A stretch of DNA of 64,000 nt from Planctomycetia bacterium (GTDB taxonomy: Bacteria > Planctomycetota > Planctomycetia > Pirellulales > UBA1268), in contig BJHK01000003.1 in the NCBI GenBank assembly GCA_014192425.1, positions 1 to 64,000 of the forward strand, read 5' to 3'. The notes under the pieces are model-generated. The model worked only from the letters and a program-made list of their open reading frames with translations, did not search any database and was not told the origin of the DNA. Positions 43,915 to 63,053 of this stretch are shown here, in pieces (within the stretch, counting starts at the first letter, position 1; every line of letters begins with the position of its first letter). Made by a program: the position numbers and the translations under genes.

Positions 43915-44590
43915 GGTGCCGGACGGGAAACCAGTCCCACGGCTCGCCGCAGGGGGCAGCGGTGAACTCCACCTCGCGATCGTCGGCCGGATGCGGAAAG
44001 CGGATTCCCGCCGCATGCAGGGCGAGCCGGCCAGGGTCGGCGTGCTCACCATACAGTCGGTCGCCGAGCAGCGGACAGCCGAGCCAGGCCATGTGAACCC
44101 GCAACTGGTGCGATCGACCGGTGAGCGGCTCGAGTGCCACGAGCGAAAACCCCTCCGCCGGCGTGCCCGGCGCTCCCCGGGCACGCAGCAACCAGCGGGT
44201 CGCCGCCCGCCGGCCATGGATCGGATCGACCCGCTGCCGCGGCGGCCGGTCGGGATCGGGGGCGAGCGGCAGGTGCATCTCCCCGTCGTCCACCGGCGGC
44301 GTTCCACGCACCACCGCGACGTAGCGCTTGCCGACGAGGCCGTTCTCGAAGGCCCGGCCGAGCGCGGCCCGGGCCTCCGCTGAGCGGGCCAGCACGAGCA
44401 GACCCGACGTGTCCCGGTCGAGACGGTGCACCGCCTCGACGGCGCCGAGCGCGGGTGCGAGCCGCGCGGCCACGCAGGGCGGGTCGAGCGGCGTTCGCGC
44501 GGGCACGCTCGGCATCCCCGTCGGCTTGTCCACGACCACGATCGCGTCGTCGCAATGGACGACCCGCGGCGGAGCGAGCGCCGCGGTCAC
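43841..44590 (-). CDS. RluA-family pseudouridine synthase
   Basis: Isomerises uridine to pseudouridine in rRNA or tRNA. The 249 residues have the opening VVVDKPTGMPSVPA, the catalytic Asp in VHRLDRDTSGLLVLA, KRYVAVVRG, and LEPLTGRSHQLRVHMAWLGCPLLGDRLYG. It has no S4 domain. The start is GTG 44590, overlapping the stop of the upstream gene (GTGA), so it is the last gene of the HtrA operon. Its 3' end overlaps the convergent photolyase-like gene by 74 bp; the last 15-20 residues are probably unstructured. Confidence 0.9.
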   Translation of the reverse strand: MTAALAPPRVVHCDDAIVVVDKPTGMPSVPARTPLDPPCVAARLAPALGAVEAVHRLDRDTSGLLVLARSAEARAALGRAFENGLVGKRYVAVVRGTPPVDDGEMHLPLAPDPDRPPRQRVDPIHGRRAATRWLLRARGAPGTPAEGFSLVALEPLTGRSHQLRVHMAWLGCPLLGDRLYGEHADPGRLALHAAGIRFPHPADDREVEFTAAPCGEPWDWFPVRHLTPAWERGPTGRPLASSARSGPDP

Positions 44591-46671
44591 AACAGCCCCA
44601 GCAGCGCCGCACAGCGGCAGAGCGGATCGGCCGGCGGGCCGGCAGCGCCGCCGGGCAAGTCCCCGACCGGGTAGCCCGCCTCGGTCAGCCGGCGCCGATC
44701 GAGATCGACCCGCGATGGCCGCTCGGCTCCCGCCGCGACCCCGAACAGCACCCACTTCCAGCGCGCCGGGTCGACCGGCTCGATCGACGCCTGGCGCGGC
44801 AGCGGCGCGTCGATGATCGCCACGCCCCGCGCCTGGGGGCCGAACCGCTCCGCCACCAGCCAGGCGAACGTGCCCCCTGCCTTGCTGCCCGCGATCACGA
44901 TCCGCGACCGATCGATCGGTCGCCGTGCATCGAGGGCGATGATGCCGCGGCCGATCGCGGCGATGTCGGCCGGCCCCCAGCGCTGCGGATCGAGCGACCC
45001 GGGAAGGAGCACGGCGACGCCATGGCGGGCCACCGCCCCCTTCCAGGCCGCGGCCGCAGCCTCGTCGAGCGGCCCGCGCGGTGGGCCGCAGTACACGACC
45101 AGCGGCAGCGGTGCCGTGCCGCGGGCGGCCGGCACCACGGCAATCTGCCGTTGCCGCTCGTCGGGCAACTCCAGCGTCATGACCGTCGCCGCATCGGTCG
45201 CACCATCGGGCCGGGTGTCAGCCGCAGCGGGCGCATCATCGGCAGCGGGCCCGAGCACGGCGGCCGGATCGACAGGCAGATCCGCGGTGACGAGATCGAC
45301 GGCGGCAGCCTTGCCCTGCCGCACGTAGCCGATCGTGACCGAGGCGCCGGGCTCGACGCCGGCGAGCGCGCCGACGAGATCCGCCACCGTGGCGACCGGC
45401 ATCGTGGCGGCATCCGCCGAGCGGATCGACGTGATCCTGTCACCGGCGCGGATGCCCGCCTTCTCCGCCGCAGCGCCGGCAAGCAGGCGATCGACGCCGA
45501 CTCCGCGCGCGGCCGGGTCGTTGTCGGCAGACAGCGGCTTTCCCTGCACCGCCGCCCGCGGCAGCAGGCCGATCGTGGCCCGCTTCCAGGGAGGGAGCCG
45601 ATCGGTGAGCACGACCCGCGCCGCAATCCTTTTCCCGTCCGCACCGGCCCCGCGCTCGACCGCCACGTCGACCTCGTCACCGGCGTACCGGGGCACCAAT
45701 TGGTGTCGGGCATCGGCGACCCGCCGCACCTCCCGGCCGGCGATCTCCACGATCCGGTCGCCGCCGCGCAGGCCGGCCCGCGCCGCCGGTGAGCCGCTGC
45801 GGCAGGAGCCGATGAGCGGCGGTCCGTTGATCGGGTCGGAGCCGTGCCACGTGATCCCGAGGATGCCGGGCAGGAGCGGCTCGCCCCGCTTCAGTCGGGG
45901 CAGCACGCGGAGCACGTCCTCCAGCGGCACGGCGAAGCCGATGCCGGCATCGTACAGTTCCGTGCCCTGGTTCATGCCGGCGGTGTCGGCGGGCAGCGGC
46001 GCGAGCAGGCCGATCACGCGGCCCGATATGTCGAGCAGGGGGCCGCCATAGTTGGCGGGCGACACGGCGGCGTCGGTCTGGACTGCTCGACCCCAGCACC
46101 GATCGGTGGCCGACACGATTCCCACCGAGACGCCAGGCGCGGCCTGATTCCACCCCCGGCCCACGGCGATCGCCCACTGGCCCGGCTCCAGTTCGCTCCG
46201 CGGCACCGCCTCCAGCCGAGGCCCGGCATCGAGGCGTTCCGTCTCCAGGAGCACGAGGGCACGGGTCCGATCACGCCCCGTCACCCGGCCCACGCCCCGT
46301 GCGCCATCGGGGCGAACGACGACGACCCTGTCGACGTCGTCCGGCACCGTCAGCGACGTCGTCACGATCCACGACGTTCCCGCCACCGCGTCGTCATCGA
46401 CGACGAGACCGGTCGCCGGTCCGGCCACGGTGACGCCGTCGGCCGCGGCGCTGAGTCCGGCGACCGACGCCCCCGGCTCGAGCCGGACAACGGCTCCGGC
46501 CACGCGGGCGACCGCGGCGCGGAATGCCTGCTCCTCGGCGAGCGTGGTGTCGTCGGCCCGCACGACCGCTGCCGCGAGCGATCCGAGCACGCACAACGTG
46601 CCGGCGATGGCCCGTCCACGCGGGCCGCCGTCCGTCGCAAGCCGCCACGTTCGCCACATGCATGCGTTCAT
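44587..46671 (-). CDS. Degenerate HtrA-like protein with two PDZ domains and a degenerate hydrolase domain
   Basis: A 694-residue exported protein (signal segment GRAIAGTLCVLGSLAAAVVRA). Residues 60-255 follow the trypsin-like fold of HtrA but have lost the triad: the His position reads Leu107 (WIVTTSLTV), the Asp position Thr136, and the Ser position Tyr208 in AAVSPANYGGPLLD. PDZ domains lie at about 262-355 (SPAARAGLRGGDRIVEIAGREV) and 365-465 (KAGIRAGDRITSI). A C-terminal alpha/beta-hydrolase-like part (about 500-690) has AGSKAGGTFAW, where the nucleophile Ser is Lys597. It is probably a binding or scaffold protein, not an enzyme. ATGA overlap with the upstream paralogue and GTGA with the RluA gene. 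Confidence 0.82.
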   Translation of the reverse strand: MNACMWRTWRLATDGGPRGRAIAGTLCVLGSLAAAVVRADDTTLAEEQAFRAAVARVAGAVVRLEPGASVAGLSAAADGVTVAGPATGLVVDDDAVAGTSWIVTTSLTVPDDVDRVVVVRPDGARGVGRVTGRDRTRALVLLETERLDAGPRLEAVPRSELEPGQWAIAVGRGWNQAAPGVSVGIVSATDRCWGRAVQTDAAVSPANYGGPLLDISGRVIGLLAPLPADTAGMNQGTELYDAGIGFAVPLEDVLRVLPRLKRGEPLLPGILGITWHGSDPINGPPLIGSCRSGSPAARAGLRGGDRIVEIAGREVRRVADARHQLVPRYAGDEVDVAVERGAGADGKRIAARVVLTDRLPPWKRATIGLLPRAAVQGKPLSADNDPAARGVGVDRLLAGAAAEKAGIRAGDRITSIRSADAATMPVATVADLVGALAGVEPGASVTIGYVRQGKAAAVDLVTADLPVDPAAVLGPAADDAPAAADTRPDGATDAATVMTLELPDERQRQIAVVPAARGTAPLPLVVYCGPPRGPLDEAAAAAWKGAVARHGVAVLLPGSLDPQRWGPADIAAIGRGIIALDARRPIDRSRIVIAGSKAGGTFAWLVAERFGPQARGVAIIDAPLPRQASIEPVDPARWKWVLFGVAAGAERPSRVDLDRRRLTEAGYPVGDLPGGAAGPPADPLCRCAALLGLL

Positions 46672-47678
46672 CGTCGCCCCTCGACGCGTGGCAAGGGGCC
46701 GAGATCGCAGGGCACGGCCTCGTCCCCCCTGATGACCGTCACGGCGACGGGATCGCCCGGCGCCAGCCCGCCCAGCACCCGGCGCACGGCGACGCGGGAC
46801 GTGACCGGCCGGCCGTTGACGGCGATCAGCAGGTCGTCGGGCCGGAGTCCGCCACGGAACGCGGCCGACTCCGCGACGAGCGACTCGACGAACGGCGGTG
46901 TGCCGTCGAGCAGGTCGGGGACGAGCACGATGCCGAGCACGCGCGGATCGACCTCCGCCCCGCGGGCCGCGGCGACCGGTGCCGGCCCGCCGGCCTCGAT
47001 CGCCTTGCATCCGGCACTGATCTCGTCGAGCGGCAGGGCATGGTTCAGCCACACGCCCGTCGCCGCCGACCGCAGTTCCTTGCCCAGCATGCCGACGAGC
47101 CGCCCGCGTGAGTCGACGACCGCTCCCCCGGCAGAACCGGGATTGTTGGTGGTGAAGTCGAGCAGGTAAGAGTCTCCCTTGTAGAGCGACTCGGCGGCGC
47201 CGCGCCGGGCCTCCAGGGGCACGACCGCCGCGATCACGCCGCGCTGCACGGTCACCCGCTCGTCCCCCACCGCCACGCCGAACAGGTTCGCCAGCGCCAT
47301 CACGCGGGTGCCGGCCGTCGCCCGCTCCCCGGCTGCGAGCGTGAAGCAGGACAGCCCTTCGGCATCAATCGACAGCAGCGCCAGATCGCGGCCCGGGTCG
47401 ATGCCGACGACCGTGGCCGCGAACCGGCGGCCATCGTCGAGCACGCAGTCGATCTCCGGCGAGTCGAGCACCGTGCTCGCCGCGGTCACGATCCTGCCCG
47501 CGGGCGAGACGAGAATCCCGGACTGGTAGGACTCGAGACCGCGCAGCCCCCCTGCCCCGTAGAGTTTGACCACCTTGCGGGCCGCGCCGGCGATCGTCTG
47601 CCGCGGCGAATCGGCCGCGCCTGCGGCGCACGCGCAGGAGACCAGGGCGAGGAGGAGGACAGCGCCGTGCAGGTTCAT
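46668..47678 (-). CDS. Degenerate HtrA-like protein with PDZ domain
   Basis: A 336-residue exported protein. The signal peptide MNLHGAVLLLALVSCACAAG could be a lipoprotein signal (LVSC). The trypsin-like domain lies at about 28-230: the His position is Ser68 (GRIVTAASTV), Asp98 remains in GRDLALL, and the catalytic Ser is Ala183 in NNPGSAGGAVVDSRG. A PDZ domain follows at about 255-330 (ESAAFRGGLRPDDLLIAVNGRPV). The fold looks intact while the chemistry is gone. ATGA overlaps join it to the active HtrA gene upstream and to the second degenerate paralogue downstream. Confidence 0.85.
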   Translation of the reverse strand: MNLHGAVLLLALVSCACAAGAADSPRQTIAGAARKVVKLYGAGGLRGLESYQSGILVSPAGRIVTAASTVLDSPEIDCVLDDGRRFAATVVGIDPGRDLALLSIDAEGLSCFTLAAGERATAGTRVMALANLFGVAVGDERVTVQRGVIAAVVPLEARRGAAESLYKGDSYLLDFTTNNPGSAGGAVVDSRGRLVGMLGKELRSAATGVWLNHALPLDEISAGCKAIEAGGPAPVAAARGAEVDPRVLGIVLVPDLLDGTPPFVESLVAESAAFRGGLRPDDLLIAVNGRPVTSRVAVRRVLGGLAPGDPVAVTVIRGDEAVPCDLGPLPRVEGRR

Positions 47679-49438
47679 GGCTTCGCCTCCGCCGGGGGCC
47701 CGGGCAGCACCGTAAACGTCTCGAACGGCTCCGTGCCCAGCCGGGCGTCGATCACGTCCCGCCCCTCCGGCGTGCGGCCGAACCGCAGTTCGCACGGATC
47801 GGCATCGGGCTCCGTCCACAGGTCGATCCCCGTCAGCGTGCCATCCCCGGCCACGTGGAACCGGGCCTCGACGCCGGCCACGGCCGCCTCGAGGACATCC
47901 ACGAGTTCGGGAATCGTGAACACGGCCATGGCCCGCGGGTCGCGCGGGGCGGTGCCGAGGTACGTCGTCCGGCCGAGCGCCGCCGGTCCCTCGCGGACGA
48001 GCCGCCGATAGAGCACCAGCGCGGCGAGGAGCCCGCCGCTTCCCGGCGGCTCCGGGCTCGTGTCGAGCTCGGCACGCGGGTCGATCCGCGACGTGCCGGT
48101 CGGCAGTTCGATGACCGCGGCATCGTCGCCGATGACGATGCGGAAGTCACCGCCGCGGCCCGTCCGGCCCGCCAGCGTCCACGCGCCGGCGCCGGCGGCT
48201 GATCCGCGGCCCACGACGGCCTTGGCGACGCGATCCCGCTCGACGACGTTGAAGTGATGGTTGGCGAAGCCGCGTCGCGTCTCGTACAGGCCGCGGACCG
48301 CGACGGGAAGCGCGGCCGCCGGCCGCTTCGGCGCCGGCTCCGCATCCGGATCAGCGGGCCGGGGACCGCTGCGGGCGGGCCGCTCCTCCCCAGCGGCGAC
48401 CGCGGCGAGTTCCGCGGCCGTGTGCACCCCTGTCAGTCTGACCAGTTTCTCCACGCGGCGCCCGCCACGACGGACCACGATCGGCACCTGCCAGCCCGCC
48501 GGGAGCGTCCCGAGGATGTTCTTGAAGCCGTTGACCGTCCGCACCGGCCGGCCGGCGAGGGCCACCACCTCGTCGTCGTGGCGGATGCCGCGCCGCCAGG
48601 CATCCGACGACTCGAGGATGTCGGAGATGAACACCGAGCCGTCGGCTGCCGAGGCGACGACCGCGCCGAGCGTCGCATGGTCGACGATCCGGCCGCCGCG
48701 CAGGCTGCCGAGGAAGTTCCGCACCTGGTTCGCCGAGATCGCGTAGCCGACGCCGACGTTCACCCGGCCGCGCTTGTCGAACGACGCCCGGCCGTTGACG
48801 CCGATCAGCCTGCCCGCGGCATCGAACAGGCCGCCCCCCGAGTTACCGGGGTTGATCGCCGCATCCACCTGGATGCAGTCGGCGTACTCGAGGATCGTGC
48901 CGCTGGGAAACTGGTAGCGATGGACGCCGGAGACGATGCCGGCGCTGATCGAGGGGCGCAGGTCGGTCGCCAGCAGGAACGGATTGCCCGCCACGAAGCA
49001 GGGATCCCCCGGCTCGACGAGATCACTGTCAGCGAGCGGCACATGGGGGAAGTCGTCGCGGCCGAGCAGCTTGACGAGCGCCACGTCGCCGGTGGGATCG
49101 ATGCCGACGATGACCGCGTCGTACAGCCGGCCGTCCGCCAGGCCGCAGGCCATCGCCACGCCTGCCGGCTGCGTGACGTGGAAGTTCGAGACCGCGTAGC
49201 CGGCGGGATCGACGAGCACCCCAGATCCGCCGCCGGCACCGGCGGCGAAGATCGAAACGGCGGCGGGCGCGGCCCGGCGAATCGCCTCGATCCGCTGCCG
49301 CTCGGCCGCCAGCACGTCCGCCGGCACATCGCCGGCGACGGCGGCCGCCAGGGATGCCAGCGTGCCGACGACGAGGGGCGCGACCGCCACAAGCCGGCGG
49401 TGCGTTTCGTTCGTCATCCAGCGGCGCTCGCGGCTCAT
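47675..49438 (-). CDS. HtrA/DegP-like serine protease with intact catalytic triad
   Basis: A 587-residue periplasmic protease (signal-like segment LVAVAPLVVGTLASLAAAVAG). The triad is complete: H87 in AVSNFHVTQ, D118 in PTGDVALVKL, S200 in AAINPGNSGGGLFD. A PDZ domain occupies about 275-370 (SDAWRRGIRHDDEVVALAGRPV). A C-terminal region of about 170 residues (VRGLYETRRGFANHHFNVVERDRV...) has no family I recognise; it is predicted to be beta-rich. Start 49438 leaves a 10-bp gap to the upstream gene; ATG 49417 is an alternative. It is the only catalytically complete member of the three. Confidence 0.9.
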   Translation of the reverse strand: MSRERRWMTNETHRRLVAVAPLVVGTLASLAAAVAGDVPADVLAAERQRIEAIRRAAPAAVSIFAAGAGGGSGVLVDPAGYAVSNFHVTQPAGVAMACGLADGRLYDAVIVGIDPTGDVALVKLLGRDDFPHVPLADSDLVEPGDPCFVAGNPFLLATDLRPSISAGIVSGVHRYQFPSGTILEYADCIQVDAAINPGNSGGGLFDAAGRLIGVNGRASFDKRGRVNVGVGYAISANQVRNFLGSLRGGRIVDHATLGAVVASAADGSVFISDILESSDAWRRGIRHDDEVVALAGRPVRTVNGFKNILGTLPAGWQVPIVVRRGGRRVEKLVRLTGVHTAAELAAVAAGEERPARSGPRPADPDAEPAPKRPAAALPVAVRGLYETRRGFANHHFNVVERDRVAKAVVGRGSAAGAGAWTLAGRTGRGGDFRIVIGDDAAVIELPTGTSRIDPRAELDTSPEPPGSGGLLAALVLYRRLVREGPAALGRTTYLGTAPRDPRAMAVFTIPELVDVLEAAVAGVEARFHVAGDGTLTGIDLWTEPDADPCELRFGRTPEGRDVIDARLGTEPFETFTVLPGPPAEAKP

Positions 49439-49448
49439 CGGGGCGGAT

Positions 49449-50687
49449 TCACTTTTCGAAGACCGGGTCATGGAACAGCACGGGCCCGCCCGGCCCGCCG
49501 CCGGCGGCATCGACCGTGATCGTCAGCCGCCGGGCATCGGCCACATCGACGTCGATCGGCAGGTCGGCCGCAGGCTCCTTCTCCGCTGCCGGCCGGTCGG
49601 CTGCCGGGCTGCGGAACACCTCCCGATCGTCCGCCTGGATCGTCACCGTCGCAACGCGGCCCGCGCCGCTCGCCGGGCCCGCGAGGCGGGCACGAAACCG
49701 CCGACTGTCGGCCGGCACGCGCCACACGATCTCCGTTCGTGGCCGGACGACCAGGCCGCCCGCCGCCACCGCCCCGGCGGGAAGAAACCGCGGGGCGAAG
49801 AACTCTCCGACCCGCCCGGCCGCCGTGAGCCCGCCGAAGAATGGCTCCACGCTCTTCCGCTCCGGCTCCAGCGTGGCCAGCCGGACGGTGCGGCCGGCCG
49901 CATAGTCGATCGATCGCAGCAATCGACCGGGAAGTTTGACCACGCCGTCGATCTCGAGGGCCTCGGGCGTCCACGTGACCGACGCTCCGCGCAGCGATCC
50001 GCCACCCACCTCGACGGCCATTCCCCCCGCCTCCCCCGGGGTGGCCCGCAGCCAGTGAAGCCCGACGACCTTCCCGCGATTGACGCGAATCGTTTCCTCG
50101 TCCAGAACCACGGCCACCTGCTCCGCTTCCACGGCGCTGATCGCGCACTCGACCAGTTCGAAGCCGGGCTCCTCCGTGTCACGCTGACGTGCGACCACGA
50201 CGAGGTCGGATGCCGGCTTTTCGGGGAGCGCCCCCAGCCACGCCGGCTCCGTGTCGCCGCCCCGGACGGGGCCGAAGGCCACCGTCCAGACGCGGTCGAT
50301 CGGCAGTTCGATCCGTCCGTCGTCCCGGAGAATGGCCGCGCGTCCATCCTGCCAGAGGAAATCATTTCCCGTCAGCCGCAGTCCCGCACCGCCCATGACC
50401 GTCACCCGCGGCGGCGGCTCCCGGTTGGCACCGCCTTCGGCGGCGACGACGACCCGGCGGATGGCGGCGACGGCGAGCACGGGCTGCGCGGCGAGCCGCA
50501 GTTCCCGCGGGCCGATCCCCTCCAGGACGCCCGCCACGACGGTGCCGTCCGTCTTCTCGACCCGCACGTCGAGCGCCGCGGCCGGCGCGACACAGGCTGC
50601 CGCCAGGCCGGCGACGAGCGCCCGCGTGGCGTTGCCTACCGCGCCCGCCAGGCGGGCCGACCCATCATGGCCCGCGCGTGCGTTCAC
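49449..50687 (-). CDS. Secreted NPCBM-like carbohydrate-binding fold protein
   Basis: A 412-residue exported protein (signal ATRALVAGLAAACVAPAAAL). The N-terminal part (to about 280) is beta-rich with an SH3-like opening DVRVEKTDGTVVAGVLEGIGP. The C-terminal 130 residues read like an NPCBM domain: RTEIVWRVPADSRRFRARLAG, VTIQADDREVFRSPAA, IDVDVADARRLTITVDAAGGG, FHDPVFEK. Such domains bind glycans. The GTG start 50687 has an excellent site (GGAGGAGAAGAGG) and lies inside the 3' end of the upstream gene, a 23-bp overlap. It precedes the HtrA gene by 10 bp. Confidence 0.75.
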   Translation of the reverse strand: MNARAGHDGSARLAGAVGNATRALVAGLAAACVAPAAALDVRVEKTDGTVVAGVLEGIGPRELRLAAQPVLAVAAIRRVVVAAEGGANREPPPRVTVMGGAGLRLTGNDFLWQDGRAAILRDDGRIELPIDRVWTVAFGPVRGGDTEPAWLGALPEKPASDLVVVARQRDTEEPGFELVECAISAVEAEQVAVVLDEETIRVNRGKVVGLHWLRATPGEAGGMAVEVGGGSLRGASVTWTPEALEIDGVVKLPGRLLRSIDYAAGRTVRLATLEPERKSVEPFFGGLTAAGRVGEFFAPRFLPAGAVAAGGLVVRPRTEIVWRVPADSRRFRARLAGPASGAGRVATVTIQADDREVFRSPAADRPAAEKEPAADLPIDVDVADARRLTITVDAAGGGPGGPVLFHDPVFEK

Positions 50688-51774
50688 CCTCTTCTCCTCC
50701 GCTGGCCAGCCGCTTGAAGTACTGCTCGATTGCCTCCCGATAATGCGGCGGGAACTCACGGCCGATCTGCTGCAGGGATGCCTCGCGCCGATGCGGCGGC
50801 AGGCTCCCCCAGGCGTCGCCGGCCTGGATCTCGCGCTTCTGCACGTCACCCCGTCCCTTGCCGTCGGCGAGCCGGCTGTCGTCGAGCGGCGTGGCCTGTC
50901 CACCCTGCCGGCCTCCGCCCCCCGCCCCGCCGCCACCGGCGCCCGCGCCCGCCGACTGCTGCTCCTTTTCCAGCGACTCGATCAGCTTGTCGAGCGATTC
51001 CACGACGCCGTCCTGCACCTTCCTGGTGGCCGGACCCGCGCCGCCCAGATCGAGCCGGCGCCGGCTGTCCCGCATCCGCCGCGCGATGTGGTCGAGCGAT
51101 CCGGCCTCGAGCGCCAGCGCATCGGCACGCAGGAGCCGGGCGACCCGTTCGTACCGCAGCGGAATCTGTCCCTGGCGCTCGAGCAGCAGGTCGATCGTCT
51201 CGACCGCCGCGGCCGTGTCGAGCAGCCAGTGCTGGCAGGCCGCGCGACAGAACAGGAGCGCTGCCGGATCGACCGCCGTGGCCGGGTCGAGGCCGGCCAG
51301 GAACGGCAGCGCCTCGTCGAACCGGTCGGCCCGCACCAACTCCCGACCGGCCCACAGGGCGACGGCCTCGCCGGCGAACGTCGAGAGCGGTCCGTCCTTC
51401 AGCCACGTGGGCGGCCCGGCCATCTGCCCACGACCGGCGAGCGACTGCCTCAGGTCGGCTGCCTGGCGATCGACGGCGGCGACGGTCTCCATGATCCGAT
51501 CGAGTGGATCAACTCTGGCCGCAGCGGGACGATTCCATGCCGCCCGGGCCCGCGACACCACGTCCGGAGCGGCGCTCGTGGCCAGCCCGTCGAGCCAGGC
51601 GCCGGCCCGGGCTTCGATCTCGGCCTGTGTCGGGATCGACCAGGACGGCTCGCGGTCGAACTCCGCATCACGGGCCGGCAGCGCCGGCGCACCGGCGATC
51701 GCAGGCAGAGGCAGACCGATGATCAGGATGCCGACGAGGGTCGCCGCCGTTCCGCATCGCCGCGACTCGCTCAT
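50665..51774 (-). CDS. Exported helical protein with C-terminal 'HYR' motif, head of the HtrA operon
   Basis: A 369-residue protein with a signal peptide (GTAATLVGILIIGLPLPAIAG). The body is helical with TPR-like pairs (ALWAGRELVRADRFDEALPFLAGLDP) and a coiled coil (VVESLDKLIESLEKEQQ), then a Gly-rich linker. It ends WGSLPPHRREASLQQIGREFPPHYREAIEQYFKRLASG, an ending I associate with planctomycete proteins near Bat operons (from memory). Function unknown; a scaffold role is likely. The start 51774 is chosen because it gives a clean signal peptide. Confidence 0.75.
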   Translation of the reverse strand: MSESRRCGTAATLVGILIIGLPLPAIAGAPALPARDAEFDREPSWSIPTQAEIEARAGAWLDGLATSAAPDVVSRARAAWNRPAAARVDPLDRIMETVAAVDRQAADLRQSLAGRGQMAGPPTWLKDGPLSTFAGEAVALWAGRELVRADRFDEALPFLAGLDPATAVDPAALLFCRAACQHWLLDTAAAVETIDLLLERQGQIPLRYERVARLLRADALALEAGSLDHIARRMRDSRRRLDLGGAGPATRKVQDGVVESLDKLIESLEKEQQSAGAGAGGGGAGGGGRQGGQATPLDDSRLADGKGRGDVQKREIQAGDAWGSLPPHRREASLQQIGREFPPHYREAIEQYFKRLASGGEEGERTRGP

Positions 51775-52926: not shown

Positions 52927-52980
52927 GGCTGAACTCCTCACGGGTGTCGAAGGATGGAGACGGGCGGCAGACGCGGCGGC

Positions 52981-54318: not shown

Positions 54319-55992
54319 TCAGGGCTCCGTCCGGCCGCTGACGATGTCCTGCGCCGCCCGCTCGATGCTGCGCTGCCGCTCTGCGAGCCGCCCGAGGGCG
54401 TCGACGAGTTCCGGCTCCTCGACCCGCTCCGCGCCGTCGGCGAGGAGTTGCGCGTATTTCTTCGTCCGCGTGTTCACCTTCACCTGCAGGCTGCGGAGCA
54501 TCTTCAGTTCGGCGAGCTTGTCGACGAGCGGCTGCTCCTGCCGCTGGCCATCGCCTCCCCCTTGCATGCCGCCGGCCTGCTTGCCCTGCTTGTCCGCCGC
54601 CGCCGCCTTCTCGACGGCTGCCAGCAGTTCCTCGAGGCCGGTCACGAGGTCCTGGCACAGCCCCCGGGTCGTGCCGTCGACGGCAGCCCGCGCCAGCCGC
54701 GCGGCGGCCTGCGCGGCATCGTCGCGAATTCCCTCCAGGGCCTGCGGGATCGCCACCGCGGAGCCGTCGTCGCGCACCAGCGTCACGGCCATCGTCGCCT
54801 CGGCGCCGACGGCGGCTTGCTCGCGGCCGAGGCGGGCCGATTCCAGTTCCCGTTCACGGGCCGCGGCCGGCGCCGCGACGAGTCGCTCGACGCCGGCGAG
54901 CACCTCGCGTTCGACGCGGAGCATCTCGCGAAGCCGCGCCCCGAGCTGCACGAGCAGCCGCTCGACCTCCTGCTCGCGCATCTGCCGGAGGATCTCCTCC
55001 AAGGCGGAGCGGGCCGTCTCCAGTTCCTCGACAGCCTGCTCCTGCGCCCGCCGTGCCTCCCCGCGACCGGCGGCGGCGAGACGTTCCCTGGCCGCCTGCA
55101 TCCGCTTCTCCGCTGCCGCGAGCCGCCGGGCCGTCCGGCGGCCCCGCGCCGCATCGTCGTCGCCGGCGTCGTCATCGGCAGCATCGGGATCGCCGCCCGC
55201 GTCCCCGCCGCCCTCCGCGGCCGGCGCAGGCTCGCTCCCGGGGGGCGTCTGCTGCCCGCGGCCCTTTCCCCCCGGCGCGCCTTGTGCTTCAGCGCCGTCG
55301 TCCGCGCCGTCGTCCGCACCGGGCTTCGGTGCAGCGCCGGCTCCGGCCTCGCGGTCATCGACGCGGCGGGCGAACCGCCCGACATCGTCGGCCAGCGACC
55401 GCACGTCCGCCGCCAGGGCCCCCTGGCGATCGGCCAGCTCCGCGGCTCGGCCTCCCGCCTCGGTGGAGCCCTCGATGTCCCGCTGCCTGGCGATCGCCTT
55501 CCCAAGCCGGGCGAGGAACGCCCGCACCTCCTCCTTGGCGCTGGCCGCCCGCCGCTCCGAGTCGCCCGATTCGAGCAGTTCCAGCAGGCCGCGCATCTGG
55601 TCGATCGCCTCCTGCTGGCTGCTCCCCGCCTTGAGGAACTGCCGCTTCTCGAGGAGCGCGACGATCGTCGTCAGCCGCTCGTCGAGCCTGCTCTCCCGGG
55701 CCTTCTCGAAGGCCGCCCGCAGCGCCGCCGAGCGGCGCGGATCGGTTGTCGAGAGCAGATCGGCGAGGCGGAGAAACGACCGCTCCAGATCCGCATACTG
55801 CCGGCGCAGATCCTCCTCCCGCTGCCGGAGCACGGCCGCCGCATCGACCGCATCCGCCGCACCTGCCGACTGCCAGGGGCCGCGGCCGGCCACGACCGCC
55901 GCCACGATCGTCAGGCAGCCCAGCAGCAGGCGGCGGGCCCGACCGGCCTTCACCCAGCGCCGACACGCTACACCACCGCCGGCTCGACTCAT
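54319..55992 (-). CDS. Exported coiled-coil protein of the Bat operon
   Basis: A 557-residue protein with a signal segment (RRLLLGCLTIVAAVVAG). Long charged helices fill most of it (REEDLRRQYADLERSFLRLADLL, RTARRLAAAEKRMQAARERLAAA, REQEVERLLVQLGARLREML). An acidic Gly/Asp/Ala-rich linker lies at about 215-275. The start overlaps the stop of the upstream membrane protein (ATGA). This position and layout suggest a periplasmic partner of the upstream vWA/membrane proteins. No enzymatic motif is seen. Confidence 0.72.
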   Translation of the reverse strand: MSRAGGGVACRRWVKAGRARRLLLGCLTIVAAVVAGRGPWQSAGAADAVDAAAVLRQREEDLRRQYADLERSFLRLADLLSTTDPRRSAALRAAFEKARESRLDERLTTIVALLEKRQFLKAGSSQQEAIDQMRGLLELLESGDSERRAASAKEEVRAFLARLGKAIARQRDIEGSTEAGGRAAELADRQGALAADVRSLADDVGRFARRVDDREAGAGAAPKPGADDGADDGAEAQGAPGGKGRGQQTPPGSEPAPAAEGGGDAGGDPDAADDDAGDDDAARGRRTARRLAAAEKRMQAARERLAAAGRGEARRAQEQAVEELETARSALEEILRQMREQEVERLLVQLGARLREMLRVEREVLAGVERLVAAPAAARERELESARLGREQAAVGAEATMAVTLVRDDGSAVAIPQALEGIRDDAAQAAARLARAAVDGTTRGLCQDLVTGLEELLAAVEKAAAADKQGKQAGGMQGGGDGQRQEQPLVDKLAELKMLRSLQVKVNTRTKKYAQLLADGAERVEEPELVDALGRLAERQRSIERAAQDIVSGRTEP

Positions 55993-58211
55993 GGTCGCTC
56001 CAGTGCCTCGCGGGCCTGCCGCTTCTGCGTTTCGATGGTCTCGGCCCGGATCTGTTCCTGCGTCCGGAGCACGCCGCGCAGCCGCTCGATGATCTCGTTG
56101 ATCGATTCCGCCTCCAACATCGTAGCCAGCACCTGCCGCATCCGCGCGATCACGGCGTCGGCCTGCCGGCCGACGGCCAGCGGGTCGGGAGCCGGCCCTC
56201 CCGGGGCCTGGCGGCAGGCCTTGGCGAGGTCCGGCAGGTCCGCCGCGGCGATTCCCGCCAGCGGCCTGGCGATTCCGCCCACGACCCGCGCGTCCAGGTC
56301 CGGGGAAAGCAGGAAATTGTTGGCTAGTTCGAGCCCGATGCCGCGAAACGCGCCGGCAATCTCGCCGGTTTCCCCCGCGGCCCGCAGCGCTGCCTCTCCG
56401 CAGCGCGTCACCGTGGAGATGGCCAACTCCGCGCCGTCCGCCTGCTGGCTGCCGAGCCGCTCCCGCGCCCGCGTCACGTCGTCGATCGCCCCCTCGAGCC
56501 GCCGGCGCAGGAGAATCTCCCGCGCCTCGAGCAGCGCCCGCAGTTCGTCGGGCGTGACGATGTCCAGCGTCCATGGGTCGCTCGTGCCGATGTTCGGCCC
56601 GCCGGCGAGCGTGCAGCCGTCGCGGGCCTCGATCGCGACGAGCAGCCGGCCGCCGGTGCCGAGTCGCAGGGAATCGATCGGCACGGCCAGCGGTTCGTCG
56701 GCGGCGATGTCGACCCTCGTCTCCCCGCCGCGCACGCGGTCGATCGGCTGCGACGCCCGCGCGGCGTCGGCAGCGGGAGCGACGGCGGACCGGAGCAGGA
56801 TCGCGGCCGCGGCCAGCCCGTGATCGTCGCTGATCGCCCCCTCGACCATGATCCGGCCCCGCGGGGTCAGCGCCGTCGGCCCACCGACGAGCCGCAGGCC
56901 GACCCGCGGCGGCTCGTCGGCGACGGCCACGAGGGTGAACGCGACGCCATCCCGGTTCACGAGGCCGTCAGTGTCCTCGAGCCTGACCAGCACCGCGGTG
57001 TCGGCGAGCACCTCGTCGAGCGTGCCGCTGATCGTGCGGGTTCCCGGCGGGGCGGAGTCGAGCGTCGCCAGCGGGATGTCCGCCGCGGGCTCGTCCGCGC
57101 CCACCGACGCGGTGTTCGTCGAACGTGACGCCCCGCCAGCGCTCGAGCGCTGCACGATCCGCGCCGACCGCAGCGGCTTCGTCGCCGTGCACTCGATCTC
57201 GACCCGCGACCCGCGTGGGATCGGGATCGTCCGGGCGGCCCGCAGTTCACGGCTGCCGCCGCCGAGGTAGGCCGGAAGGACGCAGCGGATGGCGAGCCCA
57301 TCGACCGCCGGCGGATCGACCGCCCGCAGCCGCAGATCGCGCATCCGCGCATCGCCGCCGCGAATCTCCAGTGCGACGTCGCGCGAGACATTCTTGAGGA
57401 CGTGGACGAACGTCTGCACGCCGCCGACCACGGCGCCGCGGGTGCCCATCCGCGCAGTCGTCCAGCCGCCGGGCCCGGCCAGCCTGACGTCCACCTCGGC
57501 GGGAGGCCGGTCGCTGCCGCGGGCGTGCACGACCAGCTCCACGTCGGCTCCCCGGGCCACCGTGCGGCTGCCGTCCCGAAACCCTTCCACCTCGAGCGTC
57601 ACCCGGCGCGGCCACGGCGCGGGGGAGAGGCGGAGCATGCGTTGCGCCCAGGTCATGCCGATGGCGGGCCGGACAGCCACCAGGAGGCCGACCGTGGCGG
57701 CGGCGAGCCCGGCCAGCAAGGCCAGCGACACGAGCCGGCGGCGGCGGAAGATCCGCGCCACATCGACATCGCCGAGCAGCGCCGCGGCTTCGGCCGCCGT
57801 CCGGGCGAGCAGTCGGCCGTCGATCCCCGCTTGATCGGCTGCCGCCAGCGCGATGGTGGTCGAGAGGCTGTCGCGAAATCCGGGGTGGCCGCGCTCGACG
57901 GCGATGGCGAGCGACTCGTCGGCGAGCGGCACGGCCAGCCGGGCGACGAGCTTCGTCGTCACGATCCAGCCCAGTCCGCAGAGGGCCGCGGCGCCGACGA
58001 TGCCGCGCACCCAGCCCGGGGGCTCGACGCTCCAGTCGAAGGCGAGCGATCCCCAGAAGACCGCGGCCGAGCCGATCACGAGCCAGGCGAGCGACTCGAT
58101 CCAGATCCACTTCCGGGCCTCGCGGCGTATGCCGTCCAGCAGCCGGCGGATGGCGATCACGGCGGCCCCGGTGTCGGTCGCGGCGGCGGGCTGGTCGATG
58201 ACGATTGCCAT
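55989..58211 (-). CDS. Large membrane-anchored protein (DUF4175-like)
   Basis: A 740-residue protein. Three membrane segments lie in the N-terminal 180 residues (WIWIESLAWLVIGSAAVFWGSLAF; VRGIVGAAALCGLGWIVTT; LVSLALLAGLAAATVGLLVAV). The remainder is extracytoplasmic, beta-rich with Ig-like repeats (VEVEGF-type strands, GLAIRCVLPAYLGGGSREL), and then helical at the end. The N-terminal pattern 'AVERGHPGFRDSLSTTIAL' matches what I remember of DUF4175-like proteins in Bat-type operons. It lies 23 bp from its upstream neighbour and overlaps the next gene by four bases. Confidence 0.72.
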   Translation of the reverse strand: MAIVIDQPAAATDTGAAVIAIRRLLDGIRREARKWIWIESLAWLVIGSAAVFWGSLAFDWSVEPPGWVRGIVGAAALCGLGWIVTTKLVARLAVPLADESLAIAVERGHPGFRDSLSTTIALAAADQAGIDGRLLARTAAEAAALLGDVDVARIFRRRRLVSLALLAGLAAATVGLLVAVRPAIGMTWAQRMLRLSPAPWPRRVTLEVEGFRDGSRTVARGADVELVVHARGSDRPPAEVDVRLAGPGGWTTARMGTRGAVVGGVQTFVHVLKNVSRDVALEIRGGDARMRDLRLRAVDPPAVDGLAIRCVLPAYLGGGSRELRAARTIPIPRGSRVEIECTATKPLRSARIVQRSSAGGASRSTNTASVGADEPAADIPLATLDSAPPGTRTISGTLDEVLADTAVLVRLEDTDGLVNRDGVAFTLVAVADEPPRVGLRLVGGPTALTPRGRIMVEGAISDDHGLAAAAILLRSAVAPAADAARASQPIDRVRGGETRVDIAADEPLAVPIDSLRLGTGGRLLVAIEARDGCTLAGGPNIGTSDPWTLDIVTPDELRALLEAREILLRRRLEGAIDDVTRARERLGSQQADGAELAISTVTRCGEAALRAAGETGEIAGAFRGIGLELANNFLLSPDLDARVVGGIARPLAGIAAADLPDLAKACRQAPGGPAPDPLAVGRQADAVIARMRQVLATMLEAESINEIIERLRGVLRTQEQIRAETIETQKRQAREALERP

Positions 58212-58234
58212 GGCAACGGTGCGGAGGAGCGGGT

Positions 58235-60727
58235 TCAGGCGAGCCGGAGCAGCCGCCGGGTGATCCATTCGAGGCACAACATGCCGACCCCCGCCGCGAG
58301 CAGGATGGTGTTCAGCCTGCGTTTGAAGGCGTTGTCGGCGGACGCGGTCTCGTACTCGCGCCGCGACCGGTCGGGAATCGTGGCGGCGACCCGGGCCGAG
58401 TCGGCGGCCGTCCACGATGCCGACGTTGGGTACTCCGGCTCCCTGCCCGACGCCCGCGCGACCTGTTCCAGCAGGCCGCGGTCGAGCTGCGGGCGGGCGA
58501 GTTCGCGGTCGGGCAGTTGCGCCTGGACCCGGCGGGTCAGGCGGGCGTCGTCGCCGGGACCGAGATCGCACTCGATCTGCCACGATCCCTCGCGCGACGC
58601 CACGAATCCGCCGCGGAGCATGTCCGGCCGCGACGGCTCGGCCTCCAGCGGCACCGGCACGGTGCTGCCGTCGGGGGCGATCACCCGGCAGCGCGGCCGC
58701 GGTTCGGCCGCCGCGGGCTCCGCGAGCACGAGCCGCACCGCCACCGAGCCGCCGACGGGAAACCGGTCACGGTCCACCAGCAGCCGGCCGCGGCCGGAGC
58801 CCCGGAGCAGACGCCCCTGGGCCACGTGGCGGACGAGCTGCGTCACGATCCGCTCGTACGCGGCATCGCCGATGCCGCGCAGGCGCCACAGTTCGCCGCT
58901 GGCGACGACGACCGTGCTGCCCGAACCGTAATACTGACCGGCGATGAAGATCGGACGGGCATCGGCACCGGCGGCGCCCGCGGGGGGAACCACGCGGGCG
59001 TAGACCGTGGCGCCCGGCTTGGCGGCGCCGCTGCCGATACAGGCATGGACGCCGCGAAACTCCTCCCAGATCGTCTGGCTCGCGGCCGCCGTCGGCGCCA
59101 GCCAGAGAAACTCCGCCTCCTGTCCCGCGCGGGTGAATTCCAGCCGCATCGGCTCCGCGGAAACGATTGCCTGACCCGCCCCCAGCCGTCCGGCCCCCTC
59201 CACCGGGAGCAGGCCCCGGACGGTCAGCGCCTCGACCGCTCCCTGCCAGCGTTCGGTGCCGACGGCCCCCGAGAAGAAGATCATGCCTCCCGACTCACGG
59301 GCGACCCAGCGCTCGAGCCGGGCCTGCGCCGCGGCGTCGAGCAGCCGCCAGTCGAAGTCGAAGGCCACGATCGCATCGTAGCCGCCGAGGGCCGCATCGC
59401 TGTCCGGAAACTGGTCGAGCATCCGCCGGGCATCCTGCGAGATGCCGGGCAGGGCCGTGCCGAGCAGGACGTCGACGGCGAAGCTCTTGTCACGATGCAG
59501 CACGCTGCGGGCGAACTGGTATTCCCGGGTCGGGCCCCCGGCGACGAGCAGCACCTGCGTGACCTGTTCGACCACGTCGACCTCGATCTGCTGCGCGTCG
59601 TCGGCGGGGGTCCTGTCCTGCGCCGGCGGCCGCACCCGCACCGTGAGCGCGCGCCGGCCGGGCGTCGCGAGCCCGGGAACGTCGAACCGCACGGGAACGA
59701 GGTCGCCGTCCGGGCCGAGCACGACGTCGCGAATGGCGATGCTGCGGGCCGGTGCGGTCGCCGCCGCCCCGGGCTGACCGGCGGCCGCCTCGAGGAGCTC
59801 GACCGTCGCGGCCGAGCGATCCAGGCCCTGAGCCTGCAGGTAGGCGACGACCGCGAAGCCGTCGCCGGGCACGGCCCGGGACGGCGCCACCACGTCGGCG
59901 ACGCGCACGTTCGCCGGCAGCCGATCCGAGCCGAAGCCGAGAGGATGGATCGACACCTCAGCCGTCGCGCAGGCGCCGGCGACGGCGACCGGATCGGTCC
60001 CGGCGTTGCTCGCCCCGTCCGTGAGCACGACGATGCCGGCGAGCAGCCCGCGCGGCTCCCGGTCGAGCACTGCAGCCAACGCCTCGCCGAGGCGGGTCTC
60101 ATAGCCCGCCGGCCGGAGCCGGTCGCGCCAGCCGGCGCTCGACGCCCCGTCCCCGGACGCGTCCGCCGCACCATCCTCACGCCCCGCCTCCCCGGGTTCG
60201 GTCACCCCGCGCTGCGGCAGCGTCACGAGCCGCTCCGCATCGGCCTCGAACCGCCACACGGAAACCTCGTGCCGCTCCGCCAGCGCGCCGAGCAGTCCGG
60301 CCGCGTCGAGCACGGCGGCCGCGGCCCCCGCGCGGCTTGCAGCACCGGCAGGCGCACTGCCCGGCGCGCCGTCGGCCGCGGACCGCGCCGCGGGCAGCGA
60401 CATGCTCGCGCTCGCATCGACGAGCACGGCCACGCGGCTCGGCAGCACCAGTTCCCGCTCCGTCGTGCGTTGCAGATCGAGCAGGGCGATCCCCACCACC
60501 GTGATCGCACCGAGCCGCAGGCCGGCCAGCAGCAGCCGCGCCGGCCAGGGCAGGTCGGCCGCATCGCGACGGTAGGTCCAGATGACGAGGGCGATCAGCG
60601 TGAGCGCCGCCAGCGCCAGCAGCGGCATCTGCCACCACTCGGAGAAGCCGTCGACGAGCGTGCTCACGATCCGCTCGCGGACGGCGCGGGCGGCGGGGGG
60701 AACCGGTGACTGACCGACGCTGGGCAT
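58235..60727 (-). CDS. Membrane-bound vWA domain protein (Bat operon)
   Basis: An 830-residue protein. Membrane segments near 38-55 and 67-87 precede a vWA domain with the metal site VAVLVDASASMSLP (DxSxS) and VLTDGASNAGTDP. After that come beta-sandwich parts and a glutamine amidotransferase-like stretch (VLLVAGGPTREYQFARSVL, YDAIVAFDFDWRLLDAAAQARLERWV). The C-terminal membrane anchor ends CLEWITRRLLRLA. The layout is that of vWA proteins in aerotolerance-type operons. A long Gly/Ala/Asp insertion lies near 185-205. Confidence 0.82.
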   Translation of the reverse strand: MPSVGQSPVPPAARAVRERIVSTLVDGFSEWWQMPLLALAALTLIALVIWTYRRDAADLPWPARLLLAGLRLGAITVVGIALLDLQRTTERELVLPSRVAVLVDASASMSLPAARSAADGAPGSAPAGAASRAGAAAAVLDAAGLLGALAERHEVSVWRFEADAERLVTLPQRGVTEPGEAGREDGAADASGDGASSAGWRDRLRPAGYETRLGEALAAVLDREPRGLLAGIVVLTDGASNAGTDPVAVAGACATAEVSIHPLGFGSDRLPANVRVADVVAPSRAVPGDGFAVVAYLQAQGLDRSAATVELLEAAAGQPGAAATAPARSIAIRDVVLGPDGDLVPVRFDVPGLATPGRRALTVRVRPPAQDRTPADDAQQIEVDVVEQVTQVLLVAGGPTREYQFARSVLHRDKSFAVDVLLGTALPGISQDARRMLDQFPDSDAALGGYDAIVAFDFDWRLLDAAAQARLERWVARESGGMIFFSGAVGTERWQGAVEALTVRGLLPVEGAGRLGAGQAIVSAEPMRLEFTRAGQEAEFLWLAPTAAASQTIWEEFRGVHACIGSGAAKPGATVYARVVPPAGAAGADARPIFIAGQYYGSGSTVVVASGELWRLRGIGDAAYERIVTQLVRHVAQGRLLRGSGRGRLLVDRDRFPVGGSVAVRLVLAEPAAAEPRPRCRVIAPDGSTVPVPLEAEPSRPDMLRGGFVASREGSWQIECDLGPGDDARLTRRVQAQLPDRELARPQLDRGLLEQVARASGREPEYPTSASWTAADSARVAATIPDRSRREYETASADNAFKRRLNTILLAAGVGMLCLEWITRRLLRLA

Positions 60728-60753
60728 GGGACCGGAGATCGCGAGAAAGGAGG

Positions 60754-63021
60754 TCAGCCGAACACCGGCCGCCGGCGGGCCGTCGGGGCATGGTATCCGG
60801 CCGCGCGGGCGAGCAGTTGTTCCCCCACCAGCAGAGCGAGCAGAAGGGCGAGCAGCGGCTTCACCAGGGGCATGCCGGCTGGCGCCGCGGCGGCCGCCCG
60901 CGGCGACTCGGCAGCCTCGAACCGAAACGGGATGCCCGGCAGCGCCCGGGCCAGAGCCGGGCGGTCGATGCGGCGCAGCCGGCCCTCGTCGGCGACCACG
61001 TTGACGGCGAACAGTCGCTCCCGCTCGGTGCCGTCGAGCCTGCGCCAACGGGCCGCGTAGCCCCCCGGTTCACGCGGGCGACGCAGCCGCGCCTCGAGCG
61101 GACCGGTGGCGGCGGCCACGGCCGTCTGGCGGACGACGGTGCCCTGCGGCGGAACGATGAAGTCGACCTCGATCTCGTCCACGCCCTGCTCCAGTTGCAC
61201 GGCGAGATCGTCGCCTACGACCATCTCCGTCGCCCGGCGCCGGCCGCGGGCGAGCCGGCCCTCCAGTTCCAGGAGCACCACGACCCAGCTCGGATTGCCG
61301 CGGGCCCAGTTGTTCCAGGTCGGCGCCGCCGTCGTCAGCACGGCCACCGCCATGCCGGCGCCGAACGGCCGCTCCACGGCGAGCGGCATGCCGTTGCGGA
61401 GCGAGAGCAGGCGCCGGAATCCCGACCCGGGCGCCGGCGCGAACGTCCGCTCCACGGCCGTGAACCGTTCGACCCGCACCGCATCGAGCAGTGGATTCCG
61501 CTGGCCGCTGAGCACGGCGACCGCCGGATGCTCCTCCGCGACGAGGTCTGGTGCACCGGCACCGGCCGGATCGGGAAGCAGGTCCACGCTGCCCGCCAGC
61601 GGGGCGGGAAACACGCCGGCGCCGGCGCGGTACAGGGTCTGGTTGACGACCTCGGCCCGCGTCCGCGGGCCGGTGAAGAACACGACGCCGCCGCCGGCGC
61701 GGACATAGTCCTCGACCGCCGCCACCTCGGAGGCGTCGAGCCGCTCCACGTCGAGCATGAAGATGCAGTCGAAGGTGGCGAGGTCGAGGCTGGCGAGCGC
61801 CCGCGGCTGCTCGATCCGCGGCCGGATGCCGGTCGGCGCGGCCCCGCCGGGCGCCACAGCCGTCGCCACGTAGAAGGCGTCGCCGTCACGGCCGCCGCGC
61901 GGATCACCGTCGATCACGAGCACGTCCACCCGTTCGACGACGTCGACGACCGCCGATCGCGCGTCGTCGGGCAGGAGCACGTCGGGGGGCAGCCGGGCCG
62001 CCACGAGGTGCGGACCGGCCGCGGTGAAACGGGCGTCGAAGCGGCGGCTCGCCGTGCCGCCAGCCACGATCTCCGTGATCGTCAGGCCGGGCCGCGGCAC
62101 ACCGTCTTCGGCGAGGTCGATCGCCACGTCCCGGGCCGGACCGGTCCCGTCGTTTCGCACCGTGACCTCGAAGGGCACGCTCACGCCCACGGCGGGCACG
62201 CCTCCCGCCATCTCCAACCGCTCCAGCGTCAGGTTGCCGGCTGCCGGTCGCTCTGGCGAGGCGCGATTCGCATCCCCGTCGAGGCCGCAATCGACGAACC
62301 GGAGCTCGGCGCCCGCGGCCACCAGCCGCTGCAGCGCCGCCTGCATCTCGTCGTCACCCTGCCAGTCGCGGGCCCGAAAGTCGCTCACCAGCCAGACGAT
62401 CCGGGCCGCGTCTCCCCCCTCGACGAACCCCGCGACCGCGGCCAGCGGCTGGGCCGGCGACGTCGCGAACGCCCCTGGCAGCCAGCCGGCGATGGCGGAC
62501 CGGACCTCTTGGAGAAGCAGCCGGTCGAGCGGCCGGCGCTGCAGGTCGAAACCGGCCCCGCCGGGAGCGACCGCCGAGAAGCGTCCGCAGGTGAACTCTC
62601 CCGCCCCTCCCTCGGCGACGGCATCCTCCACGAGCCGCTCCACGAACCGCCGACCGCGATCGAACGCCCGCCCCGCATCCCCCGCCGGCGCGCCGGTCGT
62701 GTCGGCCATCGAGACGGTGTCGTCGAGGAGGACGACGTGCGCGGTGCGGCCGGCGCCGAGGAGCCCGCCGATCGCCTGCCGCCAGCGCGGCTGCGCCAGG
62801 GCGAGGACGAGCCCGAGGACGATCGCCGTCCGCAGGGCGAGGAGGAGAATCTGCCGGAGCAGGACCCGCGTCCGGTACCGTCGCTGGCTGGCGAGCAGGA
62901 ACTCCAGGGCGGCGAACTTCACGCGGCGCTGCCGGAGCAGGTTGATGAGGTGGATCACCAGCGGTGCCGCCACCACGGGCAGGCCCCACCAGAACAGCGT
63001 TGGAAAGTCGAACGTCGGCAT
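60754..63021 (-). CDS. BatA-like membrane protein with vWA-like and CARDB-like domains
   Basis: A 755-residue protein. It begins FPTLFWWGLPVVAAPLVIHLINLLRQRRVKFAALEFL, the aerotolerance-regulator N-terminal signature, with a second membrane helix at 58-78. A vWA-like domain follows, whose metal site is reduced to VVLLDDTVSMADT. A CARDB-like beta domain (FEVTVRNDGTGPARDV) comes next, then an amidotransferase-like fold (VDVLVIDGDPRGG). The C-terminal helix PLLALLLALLVGEQLLARAAG anchors it. Its function is thought to be envelope stress tolerance. The start 63021 follows a 32-bp gap after the DUF58 gene. Confidence 0.85.
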   Translation of the reverse strand: MPTFDFPTLFWWGLPVVAAPLVIHLINLLRQRRVKFAALEFLLASQRRYRTRVLLRQILLLALRTAIVLGLVLALAQPRWRQAIGGLLGAGRTAHVVLLDDTVSMADTTGAPAGDAGRAFDRGRRFVERLVEDAVAEGGAGEFTCGRFSAVAPGGAGFDLQRRPLDRLLLQEVRSAIAGWLPGAFATSPAQPLAAVAGFVEGGDAARIVWLVSDFRARDWQGDDEMQAALQRLVAAGAELRFVDCGLDGDANRASPERPAAGNLTLERLEMAGGVPAVGVSVPFEVTVRNDGTGPARDVAIDLAEDGVPRPGLTITEIVAGGTASRRFDARFTAAGPHLVAARLPPDVLLPDDARSAVVDVVERVDVLVIDGDPRGGRDGDAFYVATAVAPGGAAPTGIRPRIEQPRALASLDLATFDCIFMLDVERLDASEVAAVEDYVRAGGGVVFFTGPRTRAEVVNQTLYRAGAGVFPAPLAGSVDLLPDPAGAGAPDLVAEEHPAVAVLSGQRNPLLDAVRVERFTAVERTFAPAPGSGFRRLLSLRNGMPLAVERPFGAGMAVAVLTTAAPTWNNWARGNPSWVVVLLELEGRLARGRRRATEMVVGDDLAVQLEQGVDEIEVDFIVPPQGTVVRQTAVAAATGPLEARLRRPREPGGYAARWRRLDGTERERLFAVNVVADEGRLRRIDRPALARALPGIPFRFEAAESPRAAAAAPAGMPLVKPLLALLLALLVGEQLLARAAGYHAPTARRRPVFG

Positions 63022-63053
63022 GGTGATCCCGTCAGCGGCTGCCCATCTCGCAC

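Follow-up and report, generated by a model that had tools for sequence, protein, structure and literature searches.

An HtrA-type protease gene and two paralogues without a catalytic triad at the end of a conserved planctomycete MoxR/vWA operon

Introduction

In the MamE/MamO system of the Magnetospirillum magnetosome island, an active HtrA protein is encoded with a degenerate HtrA paralogue in which the trypsin fold is kept and the active site is lost. MamO activates MamE non-catalytically and binds transition metals, and contact between the two proteins went undetected (PMC4794232); encoding in one operon is therefore no proof that two proteins bind. The CspB-CspA-CspC proteins of Clostridioides difficile comprise one active and two dead proteases, include an active-dead fusion, and rely on the dead pair to integrate the signals that lead to activation; the two dead partners bind each other and not the active protease (PMC12880746). 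MoxR/vWA pairs, for their part, remodel partner complexes (PMC9976466), and in MoxR-vWA ternary conflict systems, including those of planctomycetes, many trypsin domains are inactive (PMC7159879).

Here we analyze a window of 64,000 nucleotides from a member of the Pirellulales (assembly GCA_014192425.1, contig BJHK01000003.1, positions 1 to 64,000), in which three consecutive genes, referred to as A, B, and C, encode one HtrA-type protein with a complete triad and two paralogues without it. Like mamE and mamO, these genes place an active-type HtrA next to degenerate relatives. By contrast, MamO, which stands alone as a pseudoprotease, has a TauE transporter domain and functions in biomineralisation, whereas the present locus holds 2 separately evolved, apparently dead paralogues with PDZ domains, within a MoxR/vWA operon found phylum-wide. 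A, B, and C score at most 102 bits against the NCBIfam MamE and MamO equivalogs (cut-off 800), and are thus not members of these families, although MamE and MamO belong to the same superfamily. The cspBA-cspC locus likewise has one live and two dead paralogues, with the live one fused to one of the dead. It differs in its subtilisin fold, its function in spore germination, and a loss of catalysis that occurred within one family, making the two cases analogous, not homologous.

Upstream, the operon has a MoxR-DUF58-BatA-vWA set, which relates it to the MoxR AAA+/vWA systems NorQ/NorD and RavA/ViaA (PMC9976466, PMC10585395) and to Bat operons, but the described MoxR/vWA pairs come without an HtrA trio. 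The ternary conflict systems also combine MoxR/vWA with trypsin domains that in many cases lack catalytic activity; in those systems, however, trypsin is fused to VMAP or vWA proteins and the distribution is patchy and variable, whereas the proteins described here are separate, secreted HtrA proteins from a conserved cluster that tracks species groups. No VMAP, iSTAND, FtsH, or beta-propeller domain was seen in the subset of neighbors scanned with Pfam. We found no description of the block in the literature searched, which included few subscription papers, and these genes go unmentioned in the main text of the transposon study of Planctopirus limnophila.

Results

Gene A retains a complete catalytic triad

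Gene A (47675..49438, minus strand) encodes 587 aa with a signal peptide, a trypsin domain (residues 71-214), and a PDZ-like stretch (residues 257-330). The trypsin domain matches Pfam Trypsin_2 at 99.4 bits (cut-off 27.6, E 4e-28). As the first-pass annotation of this DNA had noted, the protein keeps His87 (49180-49178), Asp118 (49087-49085), and Ser200 (48841-48839), and the alignment of protease domains agrees with these assignments. The triad is intact (His-Asp-Ser) in all 68 rows of the phylum-wide set. We thus consider A to be most likely a secreted HtrA-type serine protease, its location and proteolytic activity being predicted from these features.

The PDZ-like stretch, which lies where a PDZ domain would be expected in an HtrA protein, scores 20.1 bits against PDZ_2, below the cut-off of 27, and 26.0 bits in the orthologue of Blastopirellula marina. 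The C-terminal domain (about residues 340-587, some 245 residues; 47678-48421, minus strand) has a fold without assignment and no confident Pfam or PDB match. Weak matches of single members to LolA_like (E 0.013) and DUF4292 (E 0.005) are a mere lead. Against TIGR02037 (DegP/Do), A, B, and C reach 178, 104, and 136 bits, respectively; since all three fall under the curated cut-off of 416.2 bits, their sequences class them as HtrA-like, yet outside the Do subfamily.

Genes B and C keep the HtrA fold without the triad

Gene B (46668..47678, minus strand; 336 aa) and gene C (44587..46671, minus strand; 694 aa) follow A through ATGA overlaps. Coordinates, order, and Pfam matches agree with the earlier description of three consecutive trypsin/PDZ genes, with A's PDZ match remaining below cut-off. 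B has a trypsin domain (residues 53-197; Trypsin_2, E 3e-22) and a single PDZ domain (residues 263-321), both above cut-off; C has a trypsin domain (E 3e-16) and 2 PDZ domains, all above cut-off. AlphaFold models built from orthologue alignments have a mean pLDDT of 88.0 for B and 88.5 for C. When compared with solved structures (VIA-align), both have DegQ, DegP, and DegS as their best matches, with Z scores to DegQ of 26.2 and 26.1, respectively, bearing out the proposal that the HtrA folds are kept.

Triad positions in all three proteins come from aligned sequences rather than from superposed models. In B, Ser68 (47477-47475) and Ala183 (47132-47130) occupy the His and Ser positions, as first reported, and Asp98 is kept. 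In C, the earlier reading of Leu107 (46353-46351) and Tyr208 (46050-46048) stands, while Thr136 is not the residue at the Asp position; this is Ala138 (46260-46258), two residues away, so C still lacks the Asp.

These losses extend across the phylum. Not one of 69 B orthologues has the full triad: the His position is occupied by Ser (50), Asn (8), or Gly (6), the Asp position by Glu (32) or Asp (17), and the Ser position by Ala (33), Pro (14), or Gln (8). In C, 65 of 66 rows (one misassigned row having been removed) carry Tyr in place of the Ser, the His position is mostly Phe, and the motif SPxNYGGPL is found where NPGNSGGPL would be. Because the same residues recur in dozens of species, the pattern is more than chance. 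Three apparent C rows with an intact triad (L061, L062, and L041) were rejected, as they are ordinary HtrA genes or gene A from loci without C. For B, the lipobox of the window's protein (LVSC) is kept in only 1 of 55 orthologues, and lipoprotein status was dropped for want of this conservation.

One could argue that B or C still cuts peptide bonds through other residues, given that 2 B proteins have a Ser as nucleophile (NPGASGG) and that the window's B retains its Asp. In these two proteins, however, Thr or Gly replaces the His, and C retains none of the three residues and has a bulky Tyr instead of the Ser, so residual cleavage appears very improbable.

Conservation of Tyr in C and Ser in B at former catalytic positions, instead of drift, could also mean that the dead folds were repurposed for a small ligand or metal, unrelated to proteolysis. 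MamO offers a precedent (PMC4794232), and NorQ/NorD-type MoxR/vWA pairs insert metal cofactors (PMC9976466). Against this, we identified no conserved ligand site, and the retained PDZ domains are a better fit for peptide binding; we rate this explanation as distinctly improbable.

C has a second degenerate domain at its C terminus (about residues 490-694), which a profile search relates to esterases of the PHB depolymerase family (E 2e-7). The first-pass annotation had placed Lys597 (44883-44881) where the nucleophile of this alpha/beta-hydrolase-like domain belongs, and both the alignment and the esterase profile match agree: Lys597 is at the nucleophile-elbow position, and the Ser of GxSxG is absent. 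None of the 59 domain-bearing orthologues has a nucleophile Ser. Since this residue is never Ser and the trypsin triad is also lost, C is, judged from its residues, doubly dead in class Planctomycetia. Outside this class, C usually stops short of the hydrolase domain. In the window, C is followed by an RluA-type pseudouridine synthase gene (43841-44587, minus strand), which was found as a neighbor in the window's own family only.

The trio lies at the 3' end of a MoxR/vWA operon

Two secreted proteins are encoded directly upstream of A, and conserved synteny supports placing both in the set, as the first-pass annotation had supposed. N4 (49449..50687, minus strand) has an NPCBM-like domain that scores 21.8 bits in the window, under cut-off, and 52.3 bits, above cut-off, in the B. 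marina orthologue. E5 (50665..51774, minus strand) is a helical protein with weak similarity to TPR proteins (SRP72, E 0.003) and a conserved C-terminal motif, WG.LPP.ERE.ALQQIG..FP.HYR..IEQYF..L.

What that annotation missed is that E5-N4-A-B-C forms the 3' end of a MoxR-DUF58-BatA-vWA operon (Pfam AAA_3, DUF58, BatA). Proceeding upstream on the minus strand, with coordinates that are ORF ranges for the first four, this comprises U6, a coiled-coil/low-complexity protein (54319..56574, true start probably near 56000); a large membrane protein without Pfam match (55989..58583), which we take to be DUF4175-like; a membrane protein with a weak vWA match (58235..61048); a BatA-type protein (60754..63612; Pfam BatA, E 3e-12); and a DUF58/vWA protein (63054..63956; Pfam, E 3e-42). 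The MoxR AAA+ gene lies just past the window (L243:9923-11053, minus strand; Pfam AAA_3).

Of 12 genomes drawn from several families, 11 have the upstream MoxR, DUF58, BatA-type, vWA, large membrane protein, and U6 genes; the 15 kb read from the twelfth (L252) showed no MoxR or DUF58. U6 is directly upstream of E5 in most relatives. In the window, the two are separated by 2 inserted genes, a Gfo/Idh/MocA oxidoreductase and a HEAT-repeat gene (52099-54213, minus strand), which interrupt the operon. Immediately upstream of MoxR is a gene of prenyltransferase/terpene-cyclase-like appearance (L243:11025-12092, minus strand), seen at 7 of 12 loci.

The block is widespread in Planctomycetota and can be lost as a whole

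A search for the same operon in other planctomycetes, as suggested at the outset, recovered E5-NPCBM-A-B-C across Pirellulales, the class, and other classes. Among 60 relatives searched, all have some HtrA match to B, 55 have a strong B orthologue, 55 have E5, and 56 have C. Four genomes (G009, G010, G013, and G052) are without B, C, and E5 together, and the gaps in G003 (E5) and G011 (B) are probably due to broken contigs. Locus maps reveal that the order E5-N4-A-B-C is constant over about 20 families of Pirellulales; in B. marina, for example, U6, E5, N4, A, B, and C form a contiguous series with touching or overlapping ends.

Within the class set of 248 genomes, E5 is present in 236, with a weak match in family f21. 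In other families of the class, A, B, and C follow E5 in 16 of the 20 loci fetched, and A and B do so in a seventeenth. Beyond the class, E5-like genes flag the block in several additional families, and it is found in several other classes of Planctomycetota. The best 80 matches of a genome-contig scan all have planctomycete names except one titled "bacterium", and Blastopirellula marina and MAGs of Pirellula or Rhodopirellula are among the named matches to the block. In several records titled Candidatus Kuenenia stuttgartiensis or Planctomicrobium piriforme, the block shares about 60% identity or more with the window, and these names look wrong for the sequence. The plasmid collection contained nothing but ordinary DegQ-like matches.

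B is missing from family f21 and from G009, G013, G052, and G226, and E5 is absent or weak in most of these. It follows that the block can be lost as a whole and, as f21 and a few other genomes live without B, that it is not indispensable for planctomycete life.

The degenerate paralogues are probably old and are under purifying selection

A tree of 129 protease domains resolves A, B, and C into one clade each (SH-aLRT 99, 93, and 100, respectively). Because each paralogue is a single clade, the duplications are most likely older than the split of the sampled classes. Catalysis was, most simply, lost once in B and once in C, and the alignments and tree suggest that both have most likely been dead since before the classes of Planctomycetota separated.

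Median dN/dS (Nei-Gojobori, 18 matched pairs, many of which have genomes in common and are hence not independent) is 0.123 for A, 0.122 for B, and 0.162 for C. One C outlier (0.943, L047 vs L180) is probably a reading-frame artefact, and the L047 gene is intact. The degenerate members thus have values below 1, as had been anticipated. Loss of the catalytic residues, and nothing else, would favor the view that B and C are decaying pseudogenes. The comparative data refute this view, to which we give practically no credence: reading frames are intact phylum-wide, each paralogue is one clade, and dN/dS near 0.12-0.16 rules out decay or relaxed selection. Together with the conserved trio and its conserved dead sites, the single origins, and the joint absences, these values uphold the earlier claim that B and C are maintained.

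A and B are fused in several lineages

One ORF spans both A and B in family f92 (three genera; L219, L222, and L224), in family f61 (L213:8701-11835), and in one genome of the window's own family (G030, L092:5033-7987). In f92 and f61, no signal peptide of B is visible between the domains, so these fusions look real and not like missed stops. The L092 ORF keeps a hydrophobic stretch between the domains, and its fusion is less certain. At the level of gene structure, the fusions are suggestive of contact between A and B, and they strengthen the earlier proposal, which we find plausible, that B and C act on A as regulators, chaperones, or adaptors.

HtrA proteins such as DegP have chaperone activity without proteolysis. 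It is conceivable on these grounds that B and C work independently, as chaperones or peptide sensors of the envelope whose trypsin and PDZ grooves bind unfolded proteins, with no action on A, and that co-transcription merely co-ordinates their expression with the MoxR/vWA machine. The retained PDZ domains, the extra domain of C that is absent from A, and the undetected MamE-MamO contact (PMC4794232) are all in keeping with this. However, the fusion of A with B in several lineages, the strictly adjacent and translationally coupled arrangement of the three genes, and the fact that B, C, and E5 are missing together from certain genomes speak against independence, and we see it as unlikely.

Discussion

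We think that B and C probably act as partners of A without catalysis of their own, in a protease complex of the envelope that would serve the MoxR/vWA machine. The undetected MamE-MamO contact (PMC4794232), the binding of the dead C. difficile partners to each other (PMC12880746), and the existence of planctomycete genomes without B count against this model. Under this model, B and C would have arisen from the same fold before the classes split, lost catalysis, and then been kept as partners of A. The three proteins would work jointly in the periplasm or envelope, where B may dock directly on A, as the A-B fusions suggest. Through their PDZ domains and closed active sites, B and C could sense a signal or bring substrates, with the dead esterase-like domain of C joining in sensing or substrate delivery in class Planctomycetia, and they may either switch A on or hold it off. 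The complex would be functionally tied to the upstream MoxR-DUF58-BatA-vWA machine, perhaps as a quality-control or processing arm. A more specific version, which we put forward only tentatively and think doubtful, is a phylum-wide envelope protease of novel composition, a hetero-oligomeric HtrA with one catalytic and two obligate dead subunits, of which one has Tyr in its active site and is dead twice over in class Planctomycetia, gated by a signal and coupled to the MoxR AAA+/vWA proteins across the inner membrane.

Most known pseudoproteases are, to our knowledge, isolated examples confined to one lineage. At this locus, two appear to have stayed beside an active protease since a time before the planctomycete classes diverged, and the reproducible signature NYGGPL (for GNSGGPL) makes such dead paralogues easy to find. 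The locus also raises a well-defined question, namely how a live HtrA subunit is affected by a dead one, in genetically tractable species, P. limnophila among them. The strong selection on B and C points to a dedicated, seemingly undescribed protease with built-in regulatory partners, and the block may offer a way into the MoxR/BatA/vWA operons, which are poorly understood, and into the biology of the planctomycete envelope.
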